Positions 719 to 25,375 of a DNA stretch of 64,000 nucleotides are shown in pieces. Location of the stretch: positions 1,890,001 through 1,954,000 of the forward strand of contig LT629302.1 in NCBI GenBank assembly GCA_900104375.1, given 5' to 3'. Every line of letters starts with the position of its first letter. Positions within the stretch are counted from its first letter, which is position 1. A model generated the notes under the pieces. That model had not been told where the DNA came from. It did no database searches and saw only the letters and a program-made list of their open reading frames with translations. The position numbers and the translations under genes were made by a program. The stretch is from Flavobacteriaceae bacterium MAR_2010_188. GTDB taxonomy: Bacteria; Bacteroidota; Bacteroidia; Flavobacteriales; Flavobacteriaceae.

Positions 719-3118
719 TTACTCTGTTCTCAAACTATCGGTTGGATTAGATCTTGCTGCTTTTATCGAATGAAAACCTACCGTTAAAAAGGTGATTGCC
801 AAAGTAATTATCCCTGCCGCAAGGAAAATTAAAACTCCAGGCTCAGTTCGATAACTAAAGTTGTTTAGCCACGCACGTGATGCCCAAAGGGCTAAAGGCA
901 TAGCAATCACTATGGCAATACTGACGAGAATCAAAAAGTTTTTACTGAGAAGAATTACAATATTACTTATAGTTGCTCCTAAGGTTTTTCTAATACCTAT
1001 CTCTTTTGTTCTCTGTACGGTGGTAAATGCAGCAAGACCAAATAGCCCCAGGCAAGCCAAGATTATAGCGATGCCAGAAGCAACTGTGAATAATTTCGAA
1101 GTCCGTTCTTCTGCTTTATATAAAGCGTCATAATCTTCATCCAAGAAATGGTAATTAAAAGGTTTTCCATCGACCCTCGATTTAAATACCGCTTCAATAC
1201 CTGCAAGGGTTTTTTCAACTTCATCGTCGTTTATTTTCAGCATAAATAATCTCGAAAAATCCCGGTTTAAGTACATCATTAAAGGCCCTACCGGTTCATG
1301 CAAACTCTGAAAGTTGAAATCCTGAACTACTCCAACAATCGGTCCTTGCCCCTTACTGTTTACAGTTTGCCCAATTGCTTCCTCCGCGGTCCAGCCAATT
1401 TGTTTGGCCAAAGTTTCATTGATAATATACGGTTGACGATAATTGGAGGAATTATTTGTGGTATCTAACAATGCGAAATCCGATTCAGTAAAATCCCGTC
1501 CGGCGAGCATTTTCATATCCAAGGTTTTAGTCAAATCTAAATCCACTGGCATTGCGTTGAGAGAAATGTCCTTTTTCCCTTGATCGGTAACTGCGGTTAA
1601 ACCATCGCCCCACTCCACGAACTCTGGTGTGTCATAAGACGCTGTCACCGAGATTACTCCGGGTGTCTGCTCAAAAGCATTTTTTAATGATTCAAAATTT
1701 TCTCGCATATTTCCACTGAAGGGAAGAACGACAACGTGGTTCTTGTCATATCCAATATTTTTGTTTTTCACAAAATCCATTTGTTGCATCACCACCAAAG
1801 TGTAGATAATTAAAAACACTGAAATGGCAAATTGACCGACTATTAATGACTTCCTAAGAAAACCATTTCCTCCGGTAGAGTTGAATCCTTTCTTAAGTAC
1901 ACCGATTGCTTTTGAACCAGAAAGAACCATCGCAGGATAAATCCCCGCAAGAAAGCTCACTACAACTGTAAAAAGCAAGAGAAGTAGTATCGGCAAAGGC
2001 CTTAGAAACTCAGAAGACTGAAAAGATGTGCTTGCAATTTCATTAAAATAAGGAACTAGGCCCATCGCCAAAATAAGAGCCAGAATTGCCGAAAAAATGG
2101 CTATCGTAGAGGTTTCACTTATAAACTGGAAAAATATTTGCTTTTTACTGGCGCCCATAACTTTTCGCATGCCTATTTCGCCGCTTCTAGAAGAGGACTG
2201 GGCCGTTGCAAGATTGGTGTAGTTTGCACTCGCAATCAATAATATCATTAGTGAAATTATGACGAAGATATAAATATTGGTCATATTACCGTTGGGTTCA
2301 AAACCAGCCAAATCCGATTTAAGATGAACATCGAGAAGAGGCTGAAGATGATAGTGGAGAAACTGATTGCCTTCTGCACCCGTTTGCTCCATAACCTGTG
2401 GAGAATCCATATAATTGTTGATTTTTTTCTCCAACCCAGAAATATTGGTCCCTTCTCCCAATAAAAAATAGGTCATCCAGTTAGCAGACCACCATTCTTC
2501 TCTTTTTGTATTTTCTCCGTAATTCGTGAATTGAGTAACGAAATCGAATTTTATCTGGGAATTTTTTGGCGCGTCTTTACAAACGCCAGAGACGCTCATT
2601 TCTTGCCCTCGAATATTCAAGGTTTTATTTATTGGCGATTGATCTCCGAAGTATTTTCGAGACATTGATTCGGTAAGTACAATTTTGTCCGGAGCATTTA
2701 AAACATTTTCTGCGCTTCCCTCAATTAGTCCGAAACTAAAAATCTTGAAGAATGCCGGATCCGCAAAAAGAATGCTATTCTCATCAAAAATTAAATTACC
2801 ATTTTTAACCGTACCACTACTAATATAGCTCCTTGCGTATTCTTCTATTTCGGGAAAATTTCTCTTTAGCTCTGGTCCTACCTTGGTGCCAGTAGAGGCA
2901 GTTTCACTCGTCTCATCCGACAGGTTATATTCCATTGTAGTCCTAACAATGCGGTCCGAGTTCTCGTTAAAAGAATCGTATTCTATTTCGTTATTGATAT
3001 ATAAGCTGATAAGAAGACATGAGGCCAATGCAATGGTTAGTCCTAGAATGTTAATGGTAGAATAGAGCTTATTTTTACTAAGACTTCTTATTGCCGTTTT
3101 AAGATAATTCCTGAACAT
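719..3118 (-). CDS. FtsX/MacB-type ABC permease, array member 1
   Basis: A 799-residue inner-membrane permease built as two MacB modules, each a membrane helix, a periplasmic MacB_PCD-like domain and FtsX helices. The first helix is in the N-terminal segment with NILGLTIALASCLLISLYI. The FtsX cytoplasmic motifs are SGEIGMRKVMGASKKQIFFQ (about residue 320) and KEIGIRKTLGATISNIVILL (about 710), and the tail ends NPTDSLRTE. MacB-family permeases couple ATP hydrolysis in the cytoplasm to periplasmic movement rather than carrying substrate through the membrane, and the substrate here is unknown. Unlike the other eight, this gene has its own copy of the regulated promoter (3172-3278) and is followed by its own ATPase (544-1), so it appears to start a separate transcription unit. 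Confidence 0.93.
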   Translation of the reverse strand: MFRNYLKTAIRSLSKNKLYSTINILGLTIALASCLLISLYINNEIEYDSFNENSDRIVRTTMEYNLSDETSETASTGTKVGPELKRNFPEIEEYARSYISSGTVKNGNLIFDENSILFADPAFFKIFSFGLIEGSAENVLNAPDKIVLTESMSRKYFGDQSPINKTLNIRGQEMSVSGVCKDAPKNSQIKFDFVTQFTNYGENTKREEWWSANWMTYFLLGEGTNISGLEKKINNYMDSPQVMEQTGAEGNQFLHYHLQPLLDVHLKSDLAGFEPNGNMTNIYIFVIISLMILLIASANYTNLATAQSSSRSGEIGMRKVMGASKKQIFFQFISETSTIAIFSAILALILAMGLVPYFNEIASTSFQSSEFLRPLPILLLLLFTVVVSFLAGIYPAMVLSGSKAIGVLKKGFNSTGGNGFLRKSLIVGQFAISVFLIIYTLVVMQQMDFVKNKNIGYDKNHVVVLPFSGNMRENFESLKNAFEQTPGVISVTASYDTPEFVEWGDGLTAVTDQGKKDISLNAMPVDLDLTKTLDMKMLAGRDFTESDFALLDTTNNSSNYRQPYIINETLAKQIGWTAEEAIGQTVNSKGQGPIVGVVQDFNFQSLHEPVGPLMMYLNRDFSRLFMLKINDDEVEKTLAGIEAVFKSRVDGKPFNYHFLDEDYDALYKAEERTSKLFTVASGIAIILACLGLFGLAAFTTVQRTKEIGIRKTLGATISNIVILLSKNFLILVSIAIVIAMPLALWASRAWLNNFSYRTEPGVLIFLAAGIITLAITFLTVGFHSIKAARSNPTDSLRTE

Positions 3119-3171
3119 ACTAAATCGTTTTTTTATAATTGCAACTCTGTACTAACTACAGATGAATACTT

Positions 3172-3188
3172 AGAAATATTGATGCCAA
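3172..3188 (-). promoter_or_regulatory. Sigma-54-like -24/-12 promoter for permease 1
   Basis: The minus strand reads TTGGCATCAATATTTCT. TGGCAT matches the sigma-54 -24 box (TGGCAC). After a 5-nt spacer comes TTTCT, against TTGCW at -12, so the -12 half is imperfect. The predicted transcription start is near 3161, about 43 nt before the ATG. The assignment rests mainly on the same TTGGCATCAA core occurring upstream of the adaptor gene at the same distance from the same activator sites, and on the NtrC-type activator in the window. Confidence 0.6.
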
Positions 3189-3239
3189 CAATGTAAACAA
3201 CAGATATTCAATAATTTAATTGAAATTGAATGAAAGATG

Positions 3240-3278
3240 TGTTCGTTTTTGATACAGTGGTTGTTCGAATATGTTACA
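3240..3278 (-). promoter_or_regulatory. Tandem 17-bp activator sites upstream of permease 1
   Basis: Two copies of an imperfect inverted repeat lie here, read on the plus strand as TGTTCGTTTTTGATACA (3240-3256) and TGTTCGAATATGTTACA (3262-3278). Their starts are 22 bp apart, about two helical turns, as expected for cooperative binding on one face. The nearer site begins 52 bp from the -24 box. The first 17-mer is identical to the one at 26919-26935. They probably bind the sigma-54 activator encoded at 27027-28367. Confidence 0.7.
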
Positions 3279-3393
3279 CTTTTAGTGGTAAGATTTTTTG
3301 GCCTAAATATGCTTCTTTTAATGAAGCAGGATTTCTGTTAATCAATGACAAATCCAGCGCTTCCACTTAAAAAATATTTACTTAAAACATGCT

Positions 3394-5826
3394 CTATTCT
3401 GACCTTAAGCTTTTTACCGGATTGGCTAGGGCGGCTTTTATTGCCTGAAAACTTAAGGTTGCGACCGCAATGGCAATTGCCGTAAGTCCGGTTAAAGCGA
3501 AAATCCACCAACTAAGATTTATCCTAAACGCAAAATCTTGCAACCAACCATCCATTGCCCACCACGCGAACGGAGCTGCAATTGCGAATGCAATAAGTAC
3601 AAGCTTTACAAAATCGATTGACATCATTGCAACGATATTCGGGATTGAAGCACCCAATACTTTTCGTATTCCGATTTCCTTTTTCCGTTGTTCTGCAATG
3701 TAAGTTGCAAGTCCAAAAAGACCAAGGCAGGCAATTAAAACCGCTAGAACCGAAAACGTCAGAGCGACCTCACCAACTCTCCTTTCCTGCTTATACATAT
3801 TCTCAAAAGATTCATCTAAAAATTCGTAGTTAAGAGGCATATTCGGAGCGGCAGCTTTATACTTTGCTTCTATAGCCGCGATGGTACTACTGATTTTTCC
3901 TGGGTTGAGACGATACGCTGCTTTCCAACTGTTATTGCCTAATCTAAAACTAAGCGCACCAACATTTTGTCGAAGAGATTCAAAATTGAAGTTTTTAACG
4001 ACCCCAATGACAGTATATGTTAGGATCTCATTATTCTTACCATTAGTGTAAAGTTTTTTGCCAAGTGGCTCTGTAAATCCAGCCAATTTCGCAGTTGCTT
4101 CGTTAATTACTATAGCGGTAGAATCTGAACCAAATTCATCTGAAAAAAACCTTCCTTCCAAAAGTTCCATATCCATGGTTTTCAGGTAATCATAATCGAC
4201 ATTCCAGTTTTGCATGTTGAAAGAATTAGATTCATCCATCACCGATGCCAGGGAAAAAGTATTATCATTTCTAGACGAATTTGAAACCGGTAAATAGCCC
4301 GCAAAACTTGCTGATTTTATTCCACTTAATGAAGAGATTTCATTCTTAACCGACTTTCTAGCCGACGAAGACAAGCCCATATTTTCTACCACCATCACCT
4401 GCTCCTTATCAAAACCAATCTTAGAATTTTGTATATGGTCTAACTGTTTATAAATGACAATAGTGCCAATTATTAGGATGATAGAAGTGGTAAATTGAAA
4501 AATCACAAGACTACTGCGGAAGTAATCTTTTTTAGAACCAGCATTTACTTTTCCTTTTAATACCGCAATTGGTTTGAAGGAAGAAAGGTAAAAAGCTGGA
4601 TAAATTCCTGCCATTGCGCCTACAATAAAAGGTAACGATACAATTAGGATTATATATAACGGACTTAGAAAAACGGACATACTTAGTTCTTTTCCAGCAA
4701 TACCGTTAAACCAAGGAATCAATAGCCAGACAAAAAAGACTGATATAATTAATGCGATAAGCGCCATAACGATGGACTCGGTCAGGAACTGCCAGATCAA
4801 GGATTTCTTGTCGGTTCCCATAACCTTTCTAATCCCAACTTCCTTGGCCCTACCTGCAGAACGGGCTGTAGAAAGATTCATAAAGTTTATGCAGGCGATA
4901 AGCAATATAAAGATTGCGGCGACAGAAAATATATAAACGTATTGAATGTTTCCGTTGGCGCCTAATTCTGGGGTTCTCCCAGATTTAAGATGGATGTCGG
5001 TAAGAGGAATCAATGAGTAGCCAATCTTGTTCCCACTTTTTTCGAAGTCGTCTATAGATTCCATGTTTAAAAATTGCTTTGCCTGAGGAAAGATATATTT
5101 TTCAATTACTTCATCAAATTTCTTGTTGAATTCCCTATAATCAACTCCGTCGCGCAAAACGATATAGGTATGAAAATTATGGCTTAAGTAATTTCCGAAA
5201 TCATAGGAAACGTTATCCATAGAAAACAAAAAGTCGTAACTAAAATGAGAGTTCTTTGGCATATCCTCGATGACTGCAGAAACTTTGTAAAGCGTCTTGT
5301 CATTATCGTCTGTCTCTATCATTTTCCCAAGCGCCTCTTTGGAGCTACCAAAGTATCGTTCTGCCGTAGTTTTTGTAATCACTACGGTGTTAGGTTCGTT
5401 TAAAGCAGTTTTAGTGTCGCCAGAAATCGCAGGAAATGTGAAGACATCGAAAAAAGTCGAGTCAACATGCGCAACTCTGTTTTCAGTGACAAACTTTTCC
5501 CCATTTTTAACCATTTTTGAACCGCTGGAAGCATATAATCTTGTGTATTGCTCTACCTGCGGATAATCCCTTTTTAAGGTTTCTCCCATTGGATCTGCAG
5601 TCACGGCCATATTCATATCTGTTCCTCCGAATCTGATATCAGAATTTATCCTGAAGATTCGTTCTGATTTCTGGTTGAATCTATCGTAACTCACTTCATC
5701 CAAAACGTACATCGTAATCATTAAAAAGCAGGCTAAACCCATGGATAGACCAACGACGTTGATTGCTGAAAATCCTTTGTGTTTCCAAAGATTTCTGAGT
5801 GCTATTTTAAAATAATTCTTGAACAT
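3394..5826 (-). CDS. FtsX/MacB-type ABC permease, array member 2
   Basis: An 810-residue permease with the double MacB-module layout. The N-terminus has a helix around NVVGLSMGLACFLMITMYVL followed by the DEVSYDRFNQ segment that is common to most of the array. The FtsX motifs are KEVGIRKVMGTDKKSLIWQF in the first half and KEIGIRKVLGASIPNIVAMM in the second. The tail ends NPVKSLRSE. This is the last gene of the long unit: downstream of it (3119-3393) comes the separate regulated promoter for member 1, with no clear terminator between them. Upstream, 229 bp of microsatellite separates it from member 3. It pairs with whichever ATPase serves the array, and its substrate is unknown. Confidence 0.92.
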   Translation of the reverse strand: MFKNYFKIALRNLWKHKGFSAINVVGLSMGLACFLMITMYVLDEVSYDRFNQKSERIFRINSDIRFGGTDMNMAVTADPMGETLKRDYPQVEQYTRLYASSGSKMVKNGEKFVTENRVAHVDSTFFDVFTFPAISGDTKTALNEPNTVVITKTTAERYFGSSKEALGKMIETDDNDKTLYKVSAVIEDMPKNSHFSYDFLFSMDNVSYDFGNYLSHNFHTYIVLRDGVDYREFNKKFDEVIEKYIFPQAKQFLNMESIDDFEKSGNKIGYSLIPLTDIHLKSGRTPELGANGNIQYVYIFSVAAIFILLIACINFMNLSTARSAGRAKEVGIRKVMGTDKKSLIWQFLTESIVMALIALIISVFFVWLLIPWFNGIAGKELSMSVFLSPLYIILIVSLPFIVGAMAGIYPAFYLSSFKPIAVLKGKVNAGSKKDYFRSSLVIFQFTTSIILIIGTIVIYKQLDHIQNSKIGFDKEQVMVVENMGLSSSARKSVKNEISSLSGIKSASFAGYLPVSNSSRNDNTFSLASVMDESNSFNMQNWNVDYDYLKTMDMELLEGRFFSDEFGSDSTAIVINEATAKLAGFTEPLGKKLYTNGKNNEILTYTVIGVVKNFNFESLRQNVGALSFRLGNNSWKAAYRLNPGKISSTIAAIEAKYKAAAPNMPLNYEFLDESFENMYKQERRVGEVALTFSVLAVLIACLGLFGLATYIAEQRKKEIGIRKVLGASIPNIVAMMSIDFVKLVLIAFAIAAPFAWWAMDGWLQDFAFRINLSWWIFALTGLTAIAIAVATLSFQAIKAALANPVKSLRSE

Positions 5827-5834
5827 GATGAAAA

Positions 5835-6054
5835 AGTTAGTTGTTAGTTGTTGGTTGTTAGTTGTTAGTTGTTAGTTGTTAGTTGTTAGTTGTTAGTTGT
5901 TAGTTGTTGGTTGTTGGTTCTTAATTTTCGTTTTCTTTAAACTACTATTTATAATTGCTACTGCTAACTGCTATTGCTAACTGCTAACTGCTACTTATAA
6001 CTGCTCACTGCTACTGCCTACTTGCTGCTGCCTACTTGCTACTGCAAACTGAAG
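5835..6054. repeat. TTGTTAG heptad array followed by CTACTGC-type repeats
   Basis: About twelve near-perfect TTGTTAG/TTGTTGG units (5835-5920) begin only 8 bp outside the ATG of permease 2. A degenerate block of CTACTGC/CTAACTGC/CTACTTGC units (about 5950-6054) runs right up to the stop codon of permease 3. The whole junction is repeat, with no CCTGCC palindrome. Confidence 0.85.
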
Positions 6055-6055
6055 G

Positions 6056-8455
6056 CTACTCCGACCTTAAACTTTTGGTAGGATTTGCAAGTGCCGCTTT
6101 TATAGATTGAAAACTTACCGTAATTAAGGTTATAAGCACAGCTCCCAACCCGGCTGCGAAGAAAATCCAAAACGATATATCCGTTCTATAGGGGAATTTC
6201 TGTATCCATTGACTCATAAAATAATAAGCAATAGGAGCAGCGATTAACAACGAAATAAATACCAACAACAAAAAGTCCTTACTTAGTAATAACCAAAGAT
6301 TTGTTAGGGTTGCACCGAGAACTTTTCTCACCCCAATTTCTTTGGTTCGCTGTTCGGCCACAAAAGAAGCTAATCCAAAAAGCCCAAGACAGCTAATGAT
6401 TATCGCCAGTATAGTAAAGACTCTCGCTAGGCTTGCAACCCTTTCCTCGGTTTCAAATTTCTTTGAGTATTCTGAATCAATAAAGTCATATTTAAAGGGC
6501 AAATTTGGAAAGTTCTTTTTAAAAGTTGCTTCAATCAATCCCAAATTCTCTGAAACACTCTTGTTAGGGTTTAATCTTAAATTATAATAGCTAGAGTTTC
6601 CATATTTATCAAAAACATATAAACCTTGCTTTACCGGTTCATAAGGGGATTGGGTAATAACATCGTCTACAACACCGATAATCTTTAAAGGAGGGTTCGG
6701 GTCTTCAACATCCTCGTCCTTTATATATTTGCCTATCGGATCTTTTAAACCCATATATTTTACCGCCGTCTTATTGATTAGTACCGCATTAGAATCGGTG
6801 GAGAATTCACGAGAAAAATCTCGACCTTCTATGATTTTCATGCCGGTTGTTTCAACATATTCTGAAGAAACCTCAGTCCAGGCAAAATCTTCTTGAAATC
6901 CTTCCGGTTTTCCATCCCAGGTATATCCTGATCTGTTGGACCAAATCTGTGTAGTTGGGCTACTAGATGTAGCCATTGCCACTGCACCGCCAGAAGAAAT
7001 AAATTCATTCTTCATGAACTCGGATTTACCTTCAAAGTCATTGCTCATTACAGGGATTTGTATTAATCCTGTTCTATTATAACCTGTTGGCCTGTCCTTG
7101 CTGTATTGTATTTGGCTCATCACAATTAAGGTTCCTATAATCAATGCTACAGAAACAGTAAATTGGGTAACCACCAAGATTTTTCTCGGTAGTGCCGAAA
7201 ATCTTCCAGATTTAAACGTACCCTTTAATACCTTTACAGGATTAAATGAGGATAAATATAAGGCAGGATAACTACCAGAAACAATGGCTGTAAATAGGAT
7301 GAACGCCAAGGAATAGATCCAGAACTCTATATTTCCCCATGGAAAATGTATTTCCTTGCTGGCCAAATCGTTAAATGAACTTAAGGATACTATTACGAGT
7401 ATCAAAGAGATTACAAATGCAATCGAAACCACTAGCAAGGATTCACTTAAAAACTGTCGGATCAATTGTTCACGGTTAGAACCGATTGCTTTCCTTATAC
7501 CAACTTCCATCGCTCTCTTTTCAGATCTTGCGGTACTTAGGTTCATAAAATTTATACAAGCCAAGAACAGAACGAAACCTCCTATGATGCCGAATAACCA
7601 AACATTTTCGATTCTACCACCGGCTTGGACTCCGTTTTCAAAATTATTTCGGAGATGCCAATCCCTCATCGGCAATAGGAAGATTCGAGGCGAAAACTCG
7701 GCATCATTAAGATTGGCCTTTTCCTTGGATTTAAGAATCTTAAGAGTTACTTGTTCCATGGTGGTGTTATCTGCAATTTGAACAAACATTTGAAACGAAT
7801 TGTTTCCCCACTGATCTGCCGCATTTTTTAGCCAGTCTTGTGTAGTTACATAATGTTTCCACGGCATAAGAAATTTAACTTCGTAAAGAGTACTTGTAAC
7901 GGGAAAATCCGCATAAACACTGGTCACCATCATATCGTCCACACTATTCACCTTAAGTATTTTACCAATGGGATTCTCATCTCCAAAAATTGCCTTGGCA
8001 GTAGATCGAGAAAGCATAATGGAGTTTTTTTCATCTAAACCGTTCTCCACGCCTTCAATAATGGTCGGTGCAAAGATTTTTAAACCTTCCTCTTGGATAA
8101 AATTCCCATCTCTGGAAATATTTTTATCACCATATTCTAAATATTTAGAATTGGTCCAAGAAGACATAGAAATATTCTTAAAATTGTCCTCATAGGATTC
8201 CCGAAATAAAAATTCCAGAGGGCGAGGAATAGCTGGGCCTGTATCCACTTGACCATTGAATGTTTGACTTTGCAAGACTTGGGCCACCGAGTCATAATTC
8301 TTAAAATCTGTGTCGAAACTCATTTCATCATTGATCCATAAGCCAATCATAACCGTAACCGCCATACCAATGGCAAGACCGAAGATGTTTATTAATGAAT
8401 AGACTTTATTCTTTAAAAGATTTCTCCAGGCTATTTTGAAATAATTTTTGATCAT
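6056..8455 (-). CDS. FtsX/MacB-type ABC permease, array member 3
   Basis: A 799-residue permease. It starts in the same way as members 6, 7 and 8 (MIKNYFKIAWRNL), with a first helix NIFGLAIGMAVTVMIGLWI. The first periplasmic domain differs from the others in the stretch following DEMSFDTDFKNYD, where the usual R-F/I-R motif is replaced by VAQVLQ. The FtsX motifs are MEVGIRKAIGSNREQLIRQF and KEIGVRKVLGATLTNLWLLL, and the tail ends NPTKSLRSE. Upstream, 195 bp of non-repetitive sequence contains a perfect 7+7 bp inverted repeat at 8490-8510. Confidence 0.92.
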   Translation of the reverse strand: MIKNYFKIAWRNLLKNKVYSLINIFGLAIGMAVTVMIGLWINDEMSFDTDFKNYDSVAQVLQSQTFNGQVDTGPAIPRPLEFLFRESYEDNFKNISMSSWTNSKYLEYGDKNISRDGNFIQEEGLKIFAPTIIEGVENGLDEKNSIMLSRSTAKAIFGDENPIGKILKVNSVDDMMVTSVYADFPVTSTLYEVKFLMPWKHYVTTQDWLKNAADQWGNNSFQMFVQIADNTTMEQVTLKILKSKEKANLNDAEFSPRIFLLPMRDWHLRNNFENGVQAGGRIENVWLFGIIGGFVLFLACINFMNLSTARSEKRAMEVGIRKAIGSNREQLIRQFLSESLLVVSIAFVISLILVIVSLSSFNDLASKEIHFPWGNIEFWIYSLAFILFTAIVSGSYPALYLSSFNPVKVLKGTFKSGRFSALPRKILVVTQFTVSVALIIGTLIVMSQIQYSKDRPTGYNRTGLIQIPVMSNDFEGKSEFMKNEFISSGGAVAMATSSSPTTQIWSNRSGYTWDGKPEGFQEDFAWTEVSSEYVETTGMKIIEGRDFSREFSTDSNAVLINKTAVKYMGLKDPIGKYIKDEDVEDPNPPLKIIGVVDDVITQSPYEPVKQGLYVFDKYGNSSYYNLRLNPNKSVSENLGLIEATFKKNFPNLPFKYDFIDSEYSKKFETEERVASLARVFTILAIIISCLGLFGLASFVAEQRTKEIGVRKVLGATLTNLWLLLSKDFLLLVFISLLIAAPIAYYFMSQWIQKFPYRTDISFWIFFAAGLGAVLITLITVSFQSIKAALANPTKSLRSE

Positions 8456-8489
8456 GATATTGGATATTTAGTAATTGAGTTAATGTTTC

Positions 8490-8510
8490 CCGAACAATCG
8501 TAATGTTCGG
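8490..8510. promoter_or_regulatory. 21-bp inverted repeat between permeases 3 and 4
   Basis: CCGAACA-ATCGTAA-TGTTCGG has perfect 7-bp arms and a 7-bp centre, and lies 35 bp upstream of the permease 3 start. No T-tract follows on either strand, so an operator or an mRNA hairpin is more likely than a terminator. It shares the TGTTCG half with the activator sites, but here the halves point outward instead of both starting with TGTTC. Function unknown. Confidence 0.45.
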
Positions 8511-8650
8511 TTTGGAGACATTATTTTTGATTATTTATTTTATAGTTTTAACTATATTAAACTTCTACTGCCTTTTGTATAACTACCCTCTATGCATATT
8601 AGGCGGACAGTCTGTAACTAATTACGCCTCCATCGCCTATCGCCTAATGC

Positions 8651-13708: not shown

Positions 13709-13718
13709 ATTAACTTCT

Positions 13719-16466: not shown

Positions 16467-18830
16467 TCAATCTGTTCTAATATTATCAGCAGGATTGGCG
16501 GTTGCCGCCCGGTAAGTATTAGACAGTATGGTTAGCAATCCTATAATCAACAAAAACAGAAAACATGCTATCAGTGATCCAATCCCGAAAGAAACTTTAT
16601 TGGCGAAATTTTGAAGGAACAACAGAGACGCTAAATAGCCGATTGGCAGTGCAATGAGTCCTGAAATCAACAACAGTTTTAAAAATCCTTTAGAGAGCAG
16701 ACGCATAATCTGGTTTACGCTCGCACCAATTATCTTCCTCACGCTGATTTCCTTTTGCCTGGTTTCTACGGTATAAATGACCAGTCCTAACAAACCGATC
16801 GTAGCGATTGAAATGGTTATAAAAGCCAAGAAACCCATGATGGTGTAAGCTTCGCCTTGATCTTCCCTTGCGGCAATTTTTTTATCTAACCATTGGTATT
16901 CTAAAGGAGAATTTGGATTCAATTTCTTCCATTCAGAAGATATCAAGGATATTAGTGCTTCCTTTTGGGTAGCTTCGACCAAAACGTTTAAATAATTGAA
17001 ACCGCTAACTTGATTTCTTAATACAAGTGGCATGATATATCTTGAAGCTCCCTTATCGTAAAAGTCTTTCACAACTCCTTTAATGGAAACTTGGGTGCTA
17101 TCATTGATGTAATATGAATTACCAATTGCTTCAGAGTTGTTTACATAGCCTAGTAGGTTTACCAATTTTTCATTAATCAAAATATTTTTCTCGCGAGCAG
17201 AAGCATCGGTTATAGAAAAATTTGATCCTGCCAAAATTTCCAATTCATGTACAAGTATTATCTGATCGTCGATGAAGTAACTTTCTGCTCTTAGGCCTTT
17301 ATCTTGGTCAGATGATCTTTCAGTATAAAGTTCAACATAACCACTCCCGCGCATCCCGAAATCTTCCGAGGTACGAGAAATGGATTTAACTCCTTTTAAT
17401 TTTGAAATTTCATTGGCAAACACCATATCTTCTCCACTCATAGGGATACTTAGAATATTTTCTGAAGCAAATCCTGGGTCCAGTTTGTCAACATAAGTGA
17501 ACTGCTGATAATAGGCAGATAGAAAAACGATGATTACAAGTGACAAACTAAATTGAAACACCAACAATCCTTTTTTTAGCGACAAGTTACCGAAGAGTTT
17601 TTGGGTAGAAAGACTTTTTAAAACATCTACAGGTCTAAACGAACTTAATATCCAAGCAGGAAAAGCACCAGCTCCAATACCTATGATGATTGTAAAAAGC
17701 AGAGCAATCCCAATCAAGATGAATTGAGTTTTTAGAATAGGGTCGTATAACAGATAGCCAATAATGGCAAAAACTAAAGCCAGGACTGCGATTAAAACCG
17801 ATTCAACAATATATTGGGTGAAAATCTGAAAGCGGGAAGCCCCAGTTACTTTTCGTACCCCAATTTCTTTAGCCCTAGTCAAGGCGCGCGCCAAGTTTAG
17901 GTTGGTATAGTTGAAGCATGCTGCCAAAAGAATTATAAGCCCAACTCCTAAAATTGTCCAAACCTTGGCCCAGACGGTACCTTTACCGATTTCATTTTTA
18001 ACAGCATCTGTTCCCGGTGTAATAGAAGAAAGTTTTTGTGCTTTGAAAGAGATTTTTGTTTCGTCAGAAATAAGCTCAGGTTTCTCTGCGACTTGTGCCA
18101 AAAGTTTTTCAAGATCGGGTTTTGAAGAATTTTCAGAGAGTAATACGTAAGTATAGGCTTCATTAAACGTGTTCCAGTCTTGTTCTTTGTTTGATAAAAG
18201 ATTGGATTTTTCTAATTGTGGAATTGCCAGGGCAGAAACATAAGCATCAAAATCGAGATGAGATTGCTGATCGGTTTCGGCAAGCACACCTGTAACTTCA
18301 AAAAGTCCAAGATTTTGAAATTCTAATATTCGCCCAATCGGGTCGGCATCACCAAAGAATCGTTTCGATGTTTCTGCCGATATTACAATGCTATTGGAAA
18401 TTTGTAATGCAGTTTCCTGATTGCCCTGAGACAATTTAAAACCAAAAACATTAAAGAATGATGGGTCAGTAAAAGCGGCTTTAAGAGGTAGGCTCTTACG
18501 CTCGTAAAGTGCTTTCTCATTTATGGCAGGATAGATTTGTACGGCATCTTCTACTTGGTCTTTAAACTGAAGCAATTCAGTTTTAAGTGGCAGAGGAGAA
18601 CTCGCTAGAACATAATCTTGATTGTCTGAAGTCTGTTCAATTTCAGATAAAATCCGAAAAGTACGATCTGGATAAGGATGAAAAAGATCAAAGCTAAAAT
18701 CTTTTTGCAATTGAACCATAACCAGCAAACAGACCGAAAGACTCAAGGCCAGACCAAAAATATTGATCAACGAAAAGAGCTTATGCTTCCATAAGTTTCT
18801 CCATGCTATTTTAAAATAATTCTTGATCAC
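16467..18830 (-). CDS. FtsX/MacB-type ABC permease, array member 7 (divergent, GTG start)
   Basis: A 787-residue permease and the most divergent member. The start codon is GTG (18828-18830 reads CAC on the plus strand), chosen because the next residues IKNYFKIAWRNLWKHK match the other members exactly. The first helix is NIFGLALSLSVCLLVMVQL. The FtsX motifs are KEIGVRKVTGASRFQIFTQY and KEISVRKIIGASVNQIMRLL, and the tail is NPADNIRTD instead of NPxxSLRxE. The second periplasmic domain is shorter than in its neighbours. It lies between a repeat junction and the head-GIN gene. Confidence 0.91.
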   Translation of the reverse strand: MIKNYFKIAWRNLWKHKLFSLINIFGLALSLSVCLLVMVQLQKDFSFDLFHPYPDRTFRILSEIEQTSDNQDYVLASSPLPLKTELLQFKDQVEDAVQIYPAINEKALYERKSLPLKAAFTDPSFFNVFGFKLSQGNQETALQISNSIVISAETSKRFFGDADPIGRILEFQNLGLFEVTGVLAETDQQSHLDFDAYVSALAIPQLEKSNLLSNKEQDWNTFNEAYTYVLLSENSSKPDLEKLLAQVAEKPELISDETKISFKAQKLSSITPGTDAVKNEIGKGTVWAKVWTILGVGLIILLAACFNYTNLNLARALTRAKEIGVRKVTGASRFQIFTQYIVESVLIAVLALVFAIIGYLLYDPILKTQFILIGIALLFTIIIGIGAGAFPAWILSSFRPVDVLKSLSTQKLFGNLSLKKGLLVFQFSLSLVIIVFLSAYYQQFTYVDKLDPGFASENILSIPMSGEDMVFANEISKLKGVKSISRTSEDFGMRGSGYVELYTERSSDQDKGLRAESYFIDDQIILVHELEILAGSNFSITDASAREKNILINEKLVNLLGYVNNSEAIGNSYYINDSTQVSIKGVVKDFYDKGASRYIMPLVLRNQVSGFNYLNVLVEATQKEALISLISSEWKKLNPNSPLEYQWLDKKIAAREDQGEAYTIMGFLAFITISIATIGLLGLVIYTVETRQKEISVRKIIGASVNQIMRLLSKGFLKLLLISGLIALPIGYLASLLFLQNFANKVSFGIGSLIACFLFLLIIGLLTILSNTYRAATANPADNIRTD

Positions 18831-18860
18831 GTGGTTTTGTTTTTCGTTGTTGATTGTGGG

Positions 18861-19085
18861 TTGTTGGTTCCTGCCGTCGGCAGGCAGGTTTGGTTGTTGG
18901 TTGTTAGTTGTTAGTTGTTAGTTGTTAGTTGTTAGTTGTTAGTTGTTAGTTGTTAGTTGTTAGAAAGTAAAAATTCTTGATTCTTGGTTCTTGATTCTTA
19001 ACTCTTAACTCTTGCCTCTCGGTTCTATGTTCTTTATTCTTTATTCTTAATTCTGATTACTGCTACTGCCAACTGCTACTGCTAC
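18861..19085. repeat. Composite repeat junction between head-GIN gene and permease 7
   Basis: No gene. It contains TTGTTGG, a palindrome CCTGCCGTCGGCAGGCAGG (18870-18888), about nine TTGTTAG units (roughly 18898-18964), ATTCTTG/CTTAACT units (18970-19012), TTCTTTATTC units and finally CTACTGC units (about 19058-19085) reaching almost to the stop codon of the head-GIN gene. The order matches other junctions of the array. Confidence 0.85.
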
Positions 19086-19089
19086 TCCC

Positions 19090-19833
19090 CTAATCAATCC
19101 TGCTAATCTTAACCCCACCGAAATTGAGACCTTTATTTATTTCAGGGTTTCCTTTATATCTAATGGTTGGTTGGCCGTAAGACGTAATCTTCAATCTGTT
19201 CTTGGCGTTGATTTCAAATTGGGCTTCGCCATAAGCGGTCAATTTGGTTTCTTCATTTTCAATATTTAAAACATCGATTTTACTTGCTCCATAGCCAGTG
19301 AATTTCTGGTCCTTAATAATCCCTGACTTCAACTCTAAATATCCTTCGCCGTAAAGCGTGGCATCTAAATCGGTTAGGTTGATTTGGTCAAAGAAGACCT
19401 TGGAATCCCCATAAATAGTTAAGTCTAGATTTTCACCAATAAATTCTCCCTGAGATTGAAATGTTTCCTCGCCACGGATTGAAAGATCTTTCAATTCTAT
19501 ATAGGTCACTTCTGCAATTACCACCGTACCATGATAAATTGGCTTTTTGGTAATGTTTCCATTGATACTCACTTTCTCTTGCTTGGTCAATTCCTTAGCA
19601 TCATCTAGAAATATCCGTAAATCCTTTCCTTTTACTTCAATATTAAGTTTAGAATCATCTTCCGTGTTACTAATGATTTTCACCGATTCTTTTTCGCCCT
19701 TAATAATTGTAACTTGTATGTGCGGACTCACAATCAATTTGTCAAAGTGATTGACCTCAACTACTTTTTGTGCATGCATAAGACTTACTACCATCAGCGC
19801 TAAAACCATACCTACTACTTTCATTTTCTTCAA
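19090..19833 (-). CDS. Head-GIN (DUF2807) domain protein, exported
   Basis: A 247-residue protein with an N-terminal signal peptide (VVGMVLALMVVSLMHAQ), so it is periplasmic or surface-located. The rest resembles the head-GIN/DUF2807 family: a repetitive beta-strand pattern, here with recurrent YG(D/E/A/Q) turns (IYGDSKVFF, LYGEGYLEL, GYGASKIDV, AYGEAQFEI, SYGQPTIRY) about every 18-20 residues, which suggests a beta-helix. The biochemical role of the family is not established. It is the only non-transporter gene inside the permease array and starts 11 bp after permease 8 ends, so it is probably translated from the same mRNA. It may be a periplasmic partner or substrate of the transporter, or a passenger gene. 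Confidence 0.85.
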   Translation of the reverse strand: MKKMKVVGMVLALMVVSLMHAQKVVEVNHFDKLIVSPHIQVTIIKGEKESVKIISNTEDDSKLNIEVKGKDLRIFLDDAKELTKQEKVSINGNITKKPIYHGTVVIAEVTYIELKDLSIRGEETFQSQGEFIGENLDLTIYGDSKVFFDQINLTDLDATLYGEGYLELKSGIIKDQKFTGYGASKIDVLNIENEETKLTAYGEAQFEINAKNRLKITSYGQPTIRYKGNPEINKGLNFGGVKISRID

Positions 19834-19844
19834 TTTTATAATGA

Positions 19845-22265
19845 TTATTCTGTTCTTAAACTTTTAACCGGATTCGCAATTGCCGCTTTTATGGTTCTAA
19901 AACTTATTGTGGTTATTGCGATGACAAGGGCTATTACACCTGCCAGCAAAAACACCCAAATATTAAGTTCTACCCTATTCGCGTAATTTTGTAGCCACTG
20001 TCCGCTAAACCACCAAGCAAGAGGAGTTGCTATTAAAAAGGCAGTCCCTACCAGTTTTAAGAAATCTAAACTGAGCATCATGGTAATGCTCGAAACACTG
20101 GCTCCAACTACTTTTCTAATTCCTATTTCTTTTCTGCGCTGAGCGACAACCAATAGTGACATGGCAAAGAGACCGATGCAACTCAAAACTATGGCTACAA
20201 TAGATCCACTGGTAATTATCGTGGTCATGGTTCTTTCTCTTGCTAAAGTATTCTCGATATTTTCATCTAAAAAAGACCCGAGAAATTCTGAATTAGGCTC
20301 AATCTTCTTCCAAGCCAATTTAACGCGGTCATATGTCTGGGTAACATTCTGAGGAGCTACTTTTATATAGGCGTTTTTAAGATTCCAGTTTGGTTTTAAG
20401 AATAAGGTAAGCGGCTCAATACTTTTATCTAAATCCTGAAAATTATAATCCTTTATCACCCCGATAACAGCAAAATTTAGAGAGTCATCCATTATTATCT
20501 GCTTACTTAAAGGGTCATCTTTAGACAATTGTCTCGCCATCGATTCATTTACAATAATTGCCAAGCTATCGGTAGCGTAATTTCGATTGAATGAACGGCC
20601 CTGCAGTATTTCTAGATTAAGGGTTTCAACATAATCATAATCAACCATGAGTATGTTGGTCTCAATATTTCTGCCTTCATAATCAAACCCGATTTGGCTG
20701 GTCCCACGGCTTTTGTCCTTGCCTAAGCCCAATGAATTGTTTGAGGCAGAAACACTGAGAATGTTTATATCATTAGCGAGTTCATTTCGTAATAGTCTCA
20801 TTACGGTTGCATCATCCTGCTTTCCATTTAGCGGAACGGAAAGAACTTGTTCCTTATTAAATCCTAAATCCTTGGTTCGCAAAAACTCTAGTTGGTTGTT
20901 TAAAACAAGAGTTCCGCTAATCAACAGGATTGCAATCCCGAATTGAAAAACGATTAATCCATTTCTTAATGTGCTATGACTGTTTACATTTAATTTTCCT
21001 TTAAGAGCCTGAATGGTTCCGAGTTTACTCATTAATAAGGCCGGATATCCACCAGAAACTAAGGTTATTAAAACCATTGAGACCAGCAGTGATATTATTA
21101 TTAAAGGTGAATTAAAATCGGATAGAGAAGCTCGGGTAGAAAACAAGGTTCTGAAAGGTTCCATTAAAGCTTTTGATACTAAAAAACCTAAACCGATAGA
21201 AATGGTAAATACTAATAAACTTTCTCCCCAAAACTGGAAGAACAGCTGTGATTTTGCCGCTCCTAAAGTCTTGCGCATCCCAATTTCCCGAAGTCTTTGC
21301 GAACTTTTGGCAATGCTCATATTCACAAAATTTACACAAGCAATAAAAATAATAAGCAATGCGATTCCCAATATCATATAAGGATAAACTCGGCTGGTGA
21401 CAGCCTGCCCATTTTTTTCTGTAGTAAAATGACTATCGGCATACTGAAGTAATTTTTGCTGATAATAATTACCGTTATCGTCCGGCTGTGCGCCATCCCT
21501 TTTTGCGTCATTTATAAAATCTTGATAGTGCAAGTTGGTAAATGATGTGGTAGATTTTTCAAACTGTGCAGGAGACACGCCTTCGTTTAATTTTAGATAG
21601 ACAGTATGATTCGATTTTTCCCAGCTATCGACATAATCTGCGTAAACAAAATCAGATTGACTTTTAAAATTGATTACCACATCAAAAGAAATAGTTGAGG
21701 TGTCCGGAAAATCCTTAAGAATTGACGAAACCTTGAAGGGCATTTCCTTTCCATCCTGTAAAATATTAACCGACTTACCTAAGACATCTGTAGAACCAAA
21801 TAAATTCTTCGCTGCATATTCTGTAATGGCGATAGAGGATTTATCGGCTATCGCACTTTTGGCATCTCCTTCAATTGAAGGAAAAGAAAAAATCGAAAAG
21901 AAATCCGGGTCAACGTAAGCAGCATACAATCTTACTTGGTCGTTTCCTTTTAATGCCAATACAGAACCTCCGTTATATCGGCTTATTTTATCTATCCCTG
22001 CAACTTCTTGCTCAATGGTTGGCGCAAAAGGAATCGGCTTTGGAATGCCTACTGCTGGACCATCTGGTGTTTGTTCTAATGTATAGATTTGATAAATTGA
22101 ATCTGAATTTTCATGAAATCGGTCAAAAGAAAGTTCAAAAAAGGCATACATCGAGAGCAGTATACCTACCGCAAATGCCATCGTAAGTCCCACAACGTTC
22201 ATTGAGGCAAAAACCTTGTCCTTCCAAAGGTTTCGTAACGCTATTTTAAAATAATTTTTGATCAT
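19845..22265 (-). CDS. FtsX/MacB-type ABC permease, array member 8
   Basis: An 806-residue permease. The first helix is NVVGLTMAFAVGILLSMYAF, followed by FELSFDRFHENSDSIYQI. The FtsX motifs are REIGMRKTLGAAKSQLFFQF and KEIGIRKVVGASVSSITMML, and the tail ends NPVKSLRTE. The gaps are short on both sides: 11 bp to the head-GIN gene downstream and 15 bp to member 9 upstream. Members 9, 8 and head-GIN therefore form the compact, repeat-free core of the operon next to the ATPase. Confidence 0.92.
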   Translation of the reverse strand: MIKNYFKIALRNLWKDKVFASMNVVGLTMAFAVGILLSMYAFFELSFDRFHENSDSIYQIYTLEQTPDGPAVGIPKPIPFAPTIEQEVAGIDKISRYNGGSVLALKGNDQVRLYAAYVDPDFFSIFSFPSIEGDAKSAIADKSSIAITEYAAKNLFGSTDVLGKSVNILQDGKEMPFKVSSILKDFPDTSTISFDVVINFKSQSDFVYADYVDSWEKSNHTVYLKLNEGVSPAQFEKSTTSFTNLHYQDFINDAKRDGAQPDDNGNYYQQKLLQYADSHFTTEKNGQAVTSRVYPYMILGIALLIIFIACVNFVNMSIAKSSQRLREIGMRKTLGAAKSQLFFQFWGESLLVFTISIGLGFLVSKALMEPFRTLFSTRASLSDFNSPLIIISLLVSMVLITLVSGGYPALLMSKLGTIQALKGKLNVNSHSTLRNGLIVFQFGIAILLISGTLVLNNQLEFLRTKDLGFNKEQVLSVPLNGKQDDATVMRLLRNELANDINILSVSASNNSLGLGKDKSRGTSQIGFDYEGRNIETNILMVDYDYVETLNLEILQGRSFNRNYATDSLAIIVNESMARQLSKDDPLSKQIIMDDSLNFAVIGVIKDYNFQDLDKSIEPLTLFLKPNWNLKNAYIKVAPQNVTQTYDRVKLAWKKIEPNSEFLGSFLDENIENTLARERTMTTIITSGSIVAIVLSCIGLFAMSLLVVAQRRKEIGIRKVVGASVSSITMMLSLDFLKLVGTAFLIATPLAWWFSGQWLQNYANRVELNIWVFLLAGVIALVIAITTISFRTIKAAIANPVKSLRTE

Positions 22266-22280
22266 GATGTGATTGATGAT

Positions 22281-24665
22281 TTATTCGGTTCTAAGACTTT
22301 TGGCTGGATTTGCAACCGCTGCCTTAATGGCGGTAAAGCTTATGGTTATTAAAGCAATAGATAATGTCACCAAAGATGCCAATAAAAATACCCACCACTC
22401 TATTTTGATTTTATAAGCAAAGTTCTGCAGCCAACCATCGGCGAAATACCAAGCAATTGGTGTTGCAACTAGAATTGAGATAGCAATTAGCTTTAAAAAA
22501 TCTACAGATAAAAGTGATGTAATTTGAAACACGCTCGCTCCAAGGACCTTTCTTATTCCAATTTCCTTCACCCTTTTTTGGGCAGAATACATTGCAAGTC
22601 CAAGTAACCCGACGCCGGCAATAATTATGGTAAGCAACACAAATAAATTGAACATTTTGGCCAATCTATCTTCAGACTTAAACATTGCATTAAAAGCATC
22701 GTCCATAAAGCGGTAGTTAAAACTTGTTTCGGTATCATATTTTTGAAAAATATCTTCAATCTTATCCAAGGCATCGGGAAGATTCGCCGCCTGATCATAT
22801 TTTATATACAAACAGCCAGAATTATATGAATTGGATGCAGCTTCTTTTTCTGAAACCAGAAGGGCCAACGCATCTATAGGAGAACTAAGTGAGGAATAAT
22901 TAAAATCCTTCACCACGCCTATAATTTCTAAAGGTGTTGCTCCAAGGGTAATGGACTCTCCAATGGGGTTAGCAGATAAGCCAAATTTAGAGATGGCTTT
23001 TTCATTAATTACAATAGTCTTGGACCGTGACAATAATTCTCGGTTCTCTGGAGCAATTTCCCACTTCACGTTTAGAACATCAAAAAAGTTCTCATCTACA
23101 CTCATAAAGGGCAAACTCAAATCTTCGGTATCCTTGGCAGAGGCAAAGAAAATATCGTAACCTTCATACAGGGGATATCCAGAAATCGAGGTTTTTTTAA
23201 CTGCCGGGATTTTTTCAAGTTCCGTTCTAAATGCGGCAGTATTTTTTGACATGCTGTTAGAAATAGGAACCATCAATATTTCTGCTCGATCTAAACCAGT
23301 ATCAATAGTCCTTATATAATTCATTTGTTGTTGAATGATTATTCCACCAATAATTAAAACTACAGCAATCACAAATTGAAGGGTAGTGCAGACTTTTCTA
23401 ACCATATTTCCCCCAAATTCATGACGGCTCTGTTGTTTAAAATTGTCTACTGGTTTAAAGGAAGACATGATAATGGCGGGATACAATCCTGCTCCAATAA
23501 TGCTCAACACAAAAAGACTAACAAGAATTAATATAAAGATTGGGTCGAAGAAAAATGACGAATCGATTGAAATTTCCATCATCGTAAAAAATCTATCTTT
23601 TAAAATATAACTTAAGAACCCCGCGATAAGAAATGAAATCGATATATAAAGCGTCGATTCGAGATAGAATTGGGTAGCAATAGATTTACGATTAGCACCA
23701 TTTACTTTGCGGATTCCTATTTCTTTAGAACGAGAGGTAGCTCTTGCCGTGGTTAAGCTTATATAATTTATTAGGGCGAGCAACAATATAAGTGCAGCGA
23801 TAAGAGGAAATACATCCAAATAATTTGTGCCAGGATTTCGGCTATTCTTTAAATGCTTATCTATGAAGGGTTGCATCGAATAAACATCTTTAGATTCCGC
23901 ATAACCTTCTTTGCTCAACTTATCCGCGGTAGCAATGATACTTTCGATTTTGGCGTTCTTTTTCAACCTAAAATAGGTTTCGAATGCTCCACCTTGAAGA
24001 ATTTGCGATTTGAACATTTGCTCATTCTCGCTCATTTTTTCCATACTACTAATAGAAGCTATAAATCGTGTATTTATGGAAGAGTTTGATGGGCCATTTT
24101 CTACAACGCCCGTGACCTGAAATTGATAGGTGCTATCTTTTTTGAATTCTAAGGTTTTACCAATGGGATTATCAGCACCAAAATATTTTAAAGCAATATT
24201 TTTTGAAATCACCAATGAAAATGGGTCGTCGAGTGCGGTTTTAGGATTTCCCTGTAATAATTTAAATGAGAAAAAATCGAAGAAATTTGAATCGCTATAG
24301 CCGAAATCGGCTTCAGAAAAACTTGCATTTTGTTGTTTTGGGTTAATTATGATTACAGGTTTATATTCTGAATAATATCTGATATGACCTTCTACTTCTG
24401 GAGAACTCTGATCAATTAGTTCTGCAGTAGAAGGACTAAATCTCTGCATATAGATTGTGTCGCTACCAAAAACGGATTTTGCCTGTAAGCTAAAGATGTT
24501 CTCAGATCCCGCATGAAATTTATCGAAGCTATACTCATGAGAAACATAAAACATAATCAGGATGCAAGCAGACAGCCCCAGAGATAGTCCGCCAATATTG
24601 ATTAGACTATACAGCTTGTTACTCTTAATATTCCTTATTGCGATTTTAAAATAATTCCTGATCAT
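22281..24665 (-). CDS. FtsX/MacB-type ABC permease, array member 9 (next to ATPase)
   Basis: A 794-residue permease. The first helix is NIGGLSLGLSACILIMFYV, followed by SHEYSFDKFHAGSENIFSL. The FtsX motifs are KEIGIRKVNGANRKSIATQF and KEIGIRKVLGASVFQITSLL, and the tail ends NPAKSLRTE. It begins 32 bp after the ATPase gene (24698-25375), in an operon that starts with the HlyD-type adaptor, so it is the best candidate for the cognate permease of that ATPase. It may be the founding copy from which the array grew, which is inference from position only. Confidence 0.92.
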   Translation of the reverse strand: MIRNYFKIAIRNIKSNKLYSLINIGGLSLGLSACILIMFYVSHEYSFDKFHAGSENIFSLQAKSVFGSDTIYMQRFSPSTAELIDQSSPEVEGHIRYYSEYKPVIIINPKQQNASFSEADFGYSDSNFFDFFSFKLLQGNPKTALDDPFSLVISKNIALKYFGADNPIGKTLEFKKDSTYQFQVTGVVENGPSNSSINTRFIASISSMEKMSENEQMFKSQILQGGAFETYFRLKKNAKIESIIATADKLSKEGYAESKDVYSMQPFIDKHLKNSRNPGTNYLDVFPLIAALILLLALINYISLTTARATSRSKEIGIRKVNGANRKSIATQFYLESTLYISISFLIAGFLSYILKDRFFTMMEISIDSSFFFDPIFILILVSLFVLSIIGAGLYPAIIMSSFKPVDNFKQQSRHEFGGNMVRKVCTTLQFVIAVVLIIGGIIIQQQMNYIRTIDTGLDRAEILMVPISNSMSKNTAAFRTELEKIPAVKKTSISGYPLYEGYDIFFASAKDTEDLSLPFMSVDENFFDVLNVKWEIAPENRELLSRSKTIVINEKAISKFGLSANPIGESITLGATPLEIIGVVKDFNYSSLSSPIDALALLVSEKEAASNSYNSGCLYIKYDQAANLPDALDKIEDIFQKYDTETSFNYRFMDDAFNAMFKSEDRLAKMFNLFVLLTIIIAGVGLLGLAMYSAQKRVKEIGIRKVLGASVFQITSLLSVDFLKLIAISILVATPIAWYFADGWLQNFAYKIKIEWWVFLLASLVTLSIALITISFTAIKAAVANPAKSLRTE

Positions 24666-24697
24666 AGGTTTCCGATTGATTGATTGATGATAGAACC

Positions 24698-25375
24698 TTA
24701 TACTAGTACATTTTCGGTAACTTTTTGACCATCTAACATCCGTATGATCCGGTGGCTATATTTAGCGTCATGTTCACTGTGTGTAACCATGATAATAGTT
24801 GTTCCCGCTTCATTAAGTTCGGTTAGAAGGTCCATAACCTCATTTCCATTACTACTGTCCAAATTTCCTGTTGGCTCATCGGCCAAGATTAATTTCGGAT
24901 TGTTGACGACTGCACGAGCTACTGCAACTCTCTGTTGTTGACCCCCAGAAAGTTGTTGCGGGAAATGTTTTCTTCGGTGCATAATACCCATTTTCTCTAG
25001 AACTTCGTCTACCCGTTTTTTTCTTTCTTCGGGCTTCACACCTGTGTAGATGAGTGGTAACTCAACATTTTCGAAAACAGTTAGCTCGTCGATAAGGTTG
25101 AAGCTTTGAAATACAAATCCGATGTTATGTTTTCTAAGATTTGCTCTTTTCCTTTCGTTGAATCCAGCTACTTCCGTCCCATTGAAAATAAAACTTCCGC
25201 CGTCGGGGTCGTCCAGTAACCCAAGGATGTTAAGCAAAGTAGATTTACCACATCCAGAAGGCCCCATGATTGCGACAAATTCTCCTTCCTTAACCTTAAA
25301 GGACAATTTATTTAAGGCAATAGTTCTCACCTCATCGGTGCTATAATACTTTTCTAGGTCAGTAATTGTTATCAT
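24698..25375 (-). CDS. ABC transporter ATP-binding protein (MacB/LolD type)
   Basis: A 225-residue complete ATPase. Visible are Walker A GPSGCGKST (about residues 38-46), the Q-loop FVFQSFNLIDELTVFENV, the signature LSGGQQQRVAVARAV, Walker [14 protein letters not shown] and the H-loop MVTHSEHDAKYSHRII. The length and motif spacing fit the LolD/MacB/FtsE subfamily, which powers FtsX-type permeases. It is the second gene of the unit, after the HlyD-type adaptor and 32 bp before permease 9. With eight permeases downstream and no other ATPase until the window start, it may serve several permeases. Confidence 0.95.
   Translation of the reverse strand: MITITDLEKYYSTDEVRTIALNKLSFKVKEGEFVAIMGPSGCGKSTLLNILGLLDDPDGGSFIFNGTEVAGFNERKRANLRKHNIGFVFQSFNLIDELTVFENVELPLIYTGVKPEERKKRVDEVLEKMGIMHRRKHFPQQLSGGQQQRVAVARAVVNNPKLILADEPTGNLDSSNGNEVMDLLTELNEAGTTIIMVTHSEHDAKYSHRIIRMLDGQKVTENVLV

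Follow-up and report, generated by a model that had tools for sequence, protein, structure and literature searches.

ATP-binding cassette (ABC) exporters are usually viewed as one pump with one dedicated motor, and the locus described here raises the question of how a long row of pump genes might work beside far fewer motor genes. It lies in the window, a stretch of 64,000 nucleotides of Flavobacteriaceae bacterium MAR_2010_188 (positions 1890001-1954000 of the source genome, a single 3.82 Mb contig), where nine large permease genes stand between two ATPase genes, here called A and B. Read from the genes, the unit runs adaptor, ATPase A, permeases P9 and P8, a gene for a DUF2807 (head GIN domain) protein, permeases P7 to P1, ATPase B and TolC, and a sigma54-type two-component pair of regulator and kinase is divergent from it. 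With a probability of about 0.62, and on the basis of sequence, we propose that the locus encodes a MacAB-TolC-like tripartite type VII ABC exporter in which a fixed chassis is combined with a variable library of permeases sharing ATPases. The chassis would comprise the divergent kinase, the sigma54-activator-type regulator, the adaptor, ATPase A, ATPase B and TolC, and the library would be the duplicated permeases between the two ATPases, nine in this genome.

The original prediction had described nine consecutive MacB/FtsX-type permeases of 787-817 residues, and nine minus-strand open reading frames (ORFs) of that size are indeed found: P1 (subfamily F19, 719-3118), P2 (F7, 3394-5826), P3 (F1, 6056-8455), P4 (F30, 8651-11065), P5 (F11, 11146-13557), P6 (F29, 13719-16172), P7 (F32, with a GTG start, 16467-18830), P8 (F3, 19845-22265) and P9 (F12, 22281-24665). 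Pfam MacB_PCD (PF12704) and FtsX (PF02687) are over their cut-offs in all nine, which places them in the type VII (MacB-fold) class, and the shared MIKNYFKIAWRNL-like N-termini and EIGIRKVLGA-like FtsX motifs are present. The C-terminal NPxxSLRxE, which had been ascribed to every member, is exact in seven but altered in P5 (NPIKSLKTE) and P7 (NPADNIRTD), and the genes do form one row, although the DUF2807 gene (19090-19833, minus strand) intervenes. Two FtsX stretches were found in each permease and two MacB_PCD stretches in eight of them (one in P7), pointing to an internal duplication. Each permease would accordingly be two MacB-like units fused, with eight membrane helices by the model described below, so that a single chain could make a whole pump. 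Outside the locus, the source genome has MacB_PCD matches in six single-unit permeases with open frames of 400-428 residues (at five places) and in one permease of 850 residues that adjoins an ATPase gene.

Whether this array is a recent local expansion can be judged from 84 annotated loci, 80 of them from an ATPase A similarity scan, together with the source locus, one of the same genus (G001) and two of the same family (G002 and G012); the permease statistics below cover the 391 ORFs of 740-900 residues that are uncut by a sequence end. The nine permeases share 27-42% pairwise identity (mean 34%), whereas eight of them have relatives at 57-76% identity at such loci in other genomes; P7, a singleton in its subfamily, has its best relative at 38%. 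Recent tandem duplication was therefore rejected, and the suggestion that the family was recently amplified is not supported; only 9 of 916 within-locus permease pairs over the 84 loci reach 50% identity. The divergence that had been noticed along the periplasmic domains was borne out when it was compared with that of the helical parts, mean identity among the nine being 26-27% in the two periplasmic regions but 49% around the first helix and 47% across the last three. Domain swapping between permeases was also considered and rejected: in the half-domain comparison, the nearest neighbours of the two halves disagree in 16 of 391 permeases, none of them strongly (margin 0.12 both ways). Since the halves agree in most permeases, the unit that moves seems to be the entire gene and not the half.

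Identifying how many motors are available to these pumps is crucial to the argument. Of 296 genomes sampled from the phylum, 93 carry such permeases (presence at E 1e-80, with up to three candidates scored per genome), and we picked 30 genomes by hand from the permease matches, a non-random set, in which ATPase A was counted at E 1e-85 and ATPase B at 1e-80. ATPase A is present as one copy in 29 of the 30 and as two in one, and ATPase B occurs at most once in all of them, while the number of permeases runs from 1 to 33 or more (the counts of seven genomes are lower bounds, since these had more candidates than the 33 scored). B was detected in all 22 genomes that have at least three permeases, as against two of the eight with one or two (Fisher p = 5e-5, uncorrected for relatedness). 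When loci without B were rechecked at E 1e-55, none was found elsewhere in the genomes of L024, L078, L084, G002 and G012, and at three of these (L078, G002 and G012) two different permeases stand with a single ATPase A. The original prediction had suggested, as one of two possibilities, that many permeases share an ATPase and thus offer interchangeable periplasmic heads; the gene numbers, together with the near-invariant docking motifs and divergent periplasmic domains described below, support it indirectly, the sharing itself being what we infer from them.

The two ATPases also differ from each other in a consistent manner. ATPase A (24698-25375, minus strand) has canonical motifs (D-loop GNLDS, signature LSGGQQQR), and the Arg after LSGGQQQ and the D-loop Asp are retained at all 84 loci and in each of 20 further copies (104 in total). 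ATPase B, of which the window holds positions 1-544 (minus strand, incomplete; the whole gene is 13876-14544 of L001, genome 1889876-1890544), reads GNLNS in the D-loop and LSGGQQQL in the signature; Leu, Ile or Val after LSGGQQQ and Asn or His in the D-loop recur in 44 of 44 and a further 14 of 14 copies (58 in total), the remaining catalytic motifs being mostly intact. Where B is present, A and B would pair as a heterodimer acting on a permease's two unequal halves, and where B is absent an A homodimer would suffice. With the D-loop Asp gone from each ATPase B examined, the locus provides a naturally occurring case in which to study asymmetric motors of the MacB type.

Several observations weigh against shared motors of this kind. 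Among the 24 picked genomes with both ATPases, A and B are neighbours in only two (G100 and G112), and one genome, G234, has two ATPase A homologues. Loci without B hold members of subfamilies F1, F2, F7 and F9, which are also found at loci with B, so B appears dispensable for these and an obligatory heterodimer is weakened. The source genome has other LolD-like ATPases (51% to 41% identity), and around three of them the ORF lists of the surrounding 8-8.5 kb contain no permease; these three could serve some of the array permeases. The mean identity of ATPase A across loci (90%) is inflated by selection, as similarity to ATPase A was the basis on which 80 of the 84 loci were included. Outside the family, ATPase A is better conserved than FtsE in the picked genomes (f11: 83-88% versus 56-59%), whereas in six of ten genomes of its own family it is less conserved than FtsE or about equally so (66-69%). 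The three LolD/FtsE-like ATPases (L128 3748-4458, L129 3799-4461 and L130 3580-4260) might possibly be partners of the single-unit permeases elsewhere in the genome.

The permeases themselves carry a signature that is in line with common motors. Conservation over the 391 permeases is highest in the C-terminal tail (relative entropy 3.29) and the two coupling motifs (2.86 and 3.28) and lowest in the periplasmic parts (1.36 and 1.44), with K334, G337, E350, E717, R721, K722 and G725 (P2 numbering) 99-100% invariant across all 51 subfamilies. We take the coupling motifs to be the sites at which ATPases dock; if so, the same presumed docking surface on all permeases would lead them to compete for, or alternate on, the shared ATPases, while the divergent periplasmic domains would determine what is handled. 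The adaptor and TolC may likewise serve several permeases.

An AlphaFold2 model of P2 (m459921661d93; 54-row alignment) has a mean predicted local distance difference test score (pLDDT) of 83.0 and a predicted template modelling score (pTM) of 0.76, and in this one model eight long membrane helices, read from DSSP elements, and two periplasmic domains can be distinguished. Its best match in the Protein Data Bank (PDB) is YbbP (Foldseek E 1.8e-18, template modelling score 0.47; Z 25.0, root-mean-square deviation 9.1 over 654 aligned residues), with MacB, LolCDE, BceB and FtsX among the further matches. This likeness leaves room for a function other than efflux, namely envelope mechanotransmission or the handling of lipids or lipoproteins, as in LolCDE, YbbAP-TesA or FtsEX, with the several permeases moving different lipids or proteins. 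The type VII fold and the YbbP match agree with such a role, and YbbP is reported to pull hydrophobic compounds out of the inner membrane (PMC12646458). We nevertheless regard it as rather unlikely, given that the operon here, like that of most complete loci, includes both an adaptor and a TolC-type gene, as in MacAB-TolC. The cargo of the proposed exporter would be envelope-active compounds.

Across the loci compared, the chassis is the stable part. The order kinase and regulator, then adaptor, ATPase A, permeases, in some cases the DUF2807 gene, ATPase B and TolC recurs over the 84 loci, and the 80 found through ATPase A show that the clustering is not a matter of chance. These 80 are nearly all flavobacterial, with Cryomorpha and Lacibacter included, and the nearest named relatives of ATPase A are from flavobacteria. 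Permeases per locus, a survey that had been called for at the outset, were counted in 49 complete loci, defined as G002, G012 and those that extend downstream from A as far as TolC or ATPase B: between 1 and 12 permease ORFs make up an array (a few split ORFs included), and ATPase B is present in 45. In G002 and G012, TolC comes first and B is lacking. This second layout, with TolC ahead of the adaptor, was seen in G002 (L126), G012 (L127), G194 (L134) and G355 (L135-L136), and B ends the array in the latter two. Larger sets exist as well: G249 has 24 permeases in 99 kb behind one A, with its B about 80 kb away on the same contig, G169 has 16 permeases, and G160 and G278 have rows of permeases without an ATPase in the stretches examined. 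Nine permease ORFs in the 24-permease stretch of G249 (L141-L145) have about 874-907 codons versus the usual 800, and their starts may be misplaced.

The arrays are far more variable. The 391 permeases fall into 51 subfamilies (average linkage, cut at 45% identity), and the 49 complete arrays contain 48 distinct subfamily sets. Same-subfamily pairs within one complete array number 7, versus 36.8 expected (sd 5.9, minimum 16 in 5000 shuffles), and 32 of the 50 subfamily pairs that co-occur at least four times are found in both orders. Among 11 locus pairs whose adaptor, regulator and kinase are at least 90% identical, the mean set overlap (Jaccard) is 0.54 and no two sets are identical, although these pairs are not independent, ten being pairs among five Leeuwenhoekiella loci. 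Permease arrays turn over more quickly than the chassis. Within 15 subfamilies, permease divergence relates to chassis divergence with Spearman coefficients from 0.09 to 0.81. ATPase A is closer to that of eight f10/f11 genomes (79-88%) than to that of six genomes of the same family (66-69%), whereas FtsE behaves in the opposite way (56-59% versus 68-89%), which is suggestive, but only that, of a horizontal spread of the locus.

Such turnover might also be read as a neutral or relict expansion, in which redundant paralogues are retained by chance, and the permeases split into two ORFs in some arrays would fit with it. The rarity of repeated subfamilies within an array and the conservation of the coupling motifs over 391 of 391 full-length permeases both speak against it, and we consider it very unlikely. 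The split permeases occur in L014, L015, L023 and L026 (707+118, 534+281, 376+401 and 402+356 codons), and are possibly broken genes or sequencing frameshifts.

A dedicated switch is the remaining part of the proposed chassis. The regulator (27021-28367, plus strand) is of the NtrC type, with a sigma54-interaction domain, a GAFTGA motif and a Fis-type helix-turn-helix, and the kinase (28357-29700, plus strand) has two short uncharged, presumably membrane, segments between which a periplasmic sensor domain would not fit. Over 82 such kinases a median of 69 residues lies ahead of the cytoplasmic motif, too few for a periplasmic sensor domain, with two uncharged segments in 60 and one in 22. Promoter-like elements were derived by aligning 24 regulator-adaptor intergenic regions. 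The dyad TGTATC-N5-CGnACA, allowing at most two mismatches, is present twice in 48, once in 28 and not at all in 2 of 78 such regions, and the paired dyads are 22 bp apart in 45 of the 48, while shuffles give 2.5 regions with one site; TTGGYA follows 69 bp downstream of the dyads in 56 of the 78. The regions counted here are also the source of the pattern, so that the independent tests are the gaps inside arrays and the whole-genome search. Within arrays, 14 of 84 gaps of 100-1500 bp have a dyad site, 10 of these with TTGGYA at the expected distance, and the permease coding DNA (649 kb) has 5 sites; an earlier, stricter score had found a site in 12 of 48 permease gaps of at least 120 bp, and the score was then lowered. 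The exact dyad occurs twice in the source genome (3.8 Mb), before the adaptor and before P1, and the composite pattern gives 35 matches in 26 of 45 genomes, 34 of them at this locus (reversed control: 1 match), with no exact composite match in the other 19.

In the source locus, the main promoter-like element (26862-26957, minus strand) holds putative dyads at 26941-26957 (two mismatches) and 26919-26935 (exact), with TTGGCA ending at 26862, and the internal one, upstream of P1, ATPase B and TolC (3183-3278, minus strand), holds putative regulator dyads at 3262-3278 and 3240-3256, with TTGGCA ending at 3183. A lone, weaker putative dyad with one mismatch lies before P3 (8504-8520, minus strand) and is not followed by TTGGYA at the standard spacing. 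The analysis relies on exact and paired sites alone, and scans at lower stringency gave 13 sites with two mismatches in the window versus 10.2 expected, no better than chance, and 34 with one mismatch genome-wide versus 29 in the control. An initial sigma54 pattern, with a spacing one base off, was found in none of the 78 regions and none of 276 gaps upstream of permeases. Because the -12 part is weak (in most rows TT[GC]-like letters stand one base closer than in the classical GG-N10-GC), the term sigma54 promoter rests on TTGGCA and the GAFTGA motif of the activator. A sigma54 survey predicts sigma54 control of COG0577 permeases in Bacteroidota (PMC12316311). With the composite and exact dyad sites nearly confined to it, the locus resembles a regulon of its own, served in the source genome by what look like two promoters under common control; the regulator would bind the dyads.

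The internal element bears on a different account of the motors, in which A homodimers drive most permeases and B homodimers a subset, for instance the last of the array. A second regulator-type element precedes the unit of last permease, DUF2807 gene where present, B and TolC here and at several other loci (of the 14 internal sites, 9 directly precede the array's last permease and 1 more precedes B), and B stays beside a TolC-type gene when apart from A (G110, G206, G249 and G186). However, across 45 loci the last permease before B comes from 18 different subfamilies, A is immediately followed by B in G100 and G112, and all 58 copies of B lack the D-loop Asp and the Arg after LSGGQQQ, which would be odd for a stand-alone motor. 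We therefore find separate motors unlikely. The ninth permease had originally been assigned an ATPase of its own; as a fixed pair this is not supported, given the same 18 subfamilies, yet it contains a kernel of truth because the second element precedes P1, ATPase B and TolC.

The kinase invites comparison with Bce-like detoxification, in which the permeases would free antimicrobial peptides or lipids from their envelope targets and the kinase would sense transporter cycling. Flux sensing of this type is described for BceAB-S (PMC10314905). Two short membrane segments with a tiny loop, a composite promoter motif almost confined to the locus and BceB among the structural matches would all suit such a system. 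To our knowledge, however, Bce systems have neither an adaptor nor TolC and BceR is not a sigma54 activator, and we see this explanation as somewhat improbable. In the proposed exporter, the kinase may sense envelope-active cargo at or through the membrane.

The ATPase and adaptor named at the outset are both present, the HlyD/RND-type periplasmic adaptor (25572-26825, minus strand) lying just outside the range first given for the cluster. The operon extends beyond the window edge with the remainder of ATPase B and then a TolC-type gene. The DUF2807 gene was flagged in 13 of the 49 complete loci, the source locus included, and stands directly before ATPase B in several others (e.g., L032, L034 and L035). 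An Rfam scan of window positions 1-30000 gave no match at the gathering score, and of six proteins submitted to PADLOC, ATPase A alone was matched, to generic ATPase models.

A bolder version of shared motors can be put forward tentatively, as a possibility we would not yet favour: one asymmetric A/B heterodimer might motor the whole permease set of a genome, linked or scattered and from few to more than 30, with cassette-like gain, loss and reshuffling under one sigma54-type switch. If so, the arrangement would supply the missing ATPase of so-called orphan (ADOP-like) permeases. With motor gene number fixed while pump genes reach dozens, it becomes testable whether one ATPase pair drives many pumps, and the same locus opens the questions of how pumps are swapped and of which ATPase powers the orphan duplicated permease sets in Acidobacteria and Bacteroidota.

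No description of such arrays, or of a shared ATPase for them, was found in the open-access papers searched, and the combination of a constant asymmetric motor pair, a variable, reshuffled permease library and a dedicated switch is apparently undescribed. Its pieces are known: MacB-type permeases, ADOP-like duplication, MacA/TolC partners and shared ATPases (MceG). The ADOP model TIGR03434 is the best NCBIfam match of all nine permeases, nearly end to end (234.5-325.6 bits), though all are under its cut-off of 622.3. Both are duplicated permeases of about 800 residues, but the ADOP family is, as we understand it, described as lacking adjacent ATPases, whereas the array here is flanked by ATPases A and B, and its operon also has an adaptor and TolC. 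Large sets of such permeases per genome are reported in two studies, with 102 of the ADOP type in an acidobacterial metagenome-assembled genome (PMC10564751) and 28 and 33 copies, by RAST, in two Dyadobacter genomes (PMC11573002).

The darobactin exporter (DarB NF038008, DarC NF038010, DarD NF038007) resembles the locus in combining a duplicated permease with a single adaptor and a single ATPase. Among the NCBIfam models, DarD scores highest for ATPase A and DarC for the adaptor, with DarB second for the permeases, and all are under their cut-offs (299.9/375, 172.7/450 and 86.2-187.6/700, respectively). That exporter has one permease, in contrast to the array here. As in MacAB-TolC, the operon here, judged by gene order, combines permeases of the MacB fold with an adaptor and a TolC-type gene. 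MacB, however, is a single-unit permease fused to its own ATPase, whereas here the ATPase genes are separate and the permeases have two units. MacB works as a homodimer (PMC5985334).

YbbAP(-TesA) likewise has two MacB units per chain with two periplasmic domains. We know of no adaptor/TolC pair for YbbAP. YbbP has ten membrane helices, including two linking helices between the units (PMC5985334), and its second periplasmic domain lies between helices 7 and 8 (PMC12646458); in the single P2 model, eight helices can tentatively be read. A precedent for a shared motor is MceG, which Mce1 and Mce4 share, so that one ATPase appears to serve several permeases (PMC9947336). Those systems differ in being importers of another kind with two partners, whereas in the genomes described here up to dozens of permeases are accompanied by a second, altered ATPase.

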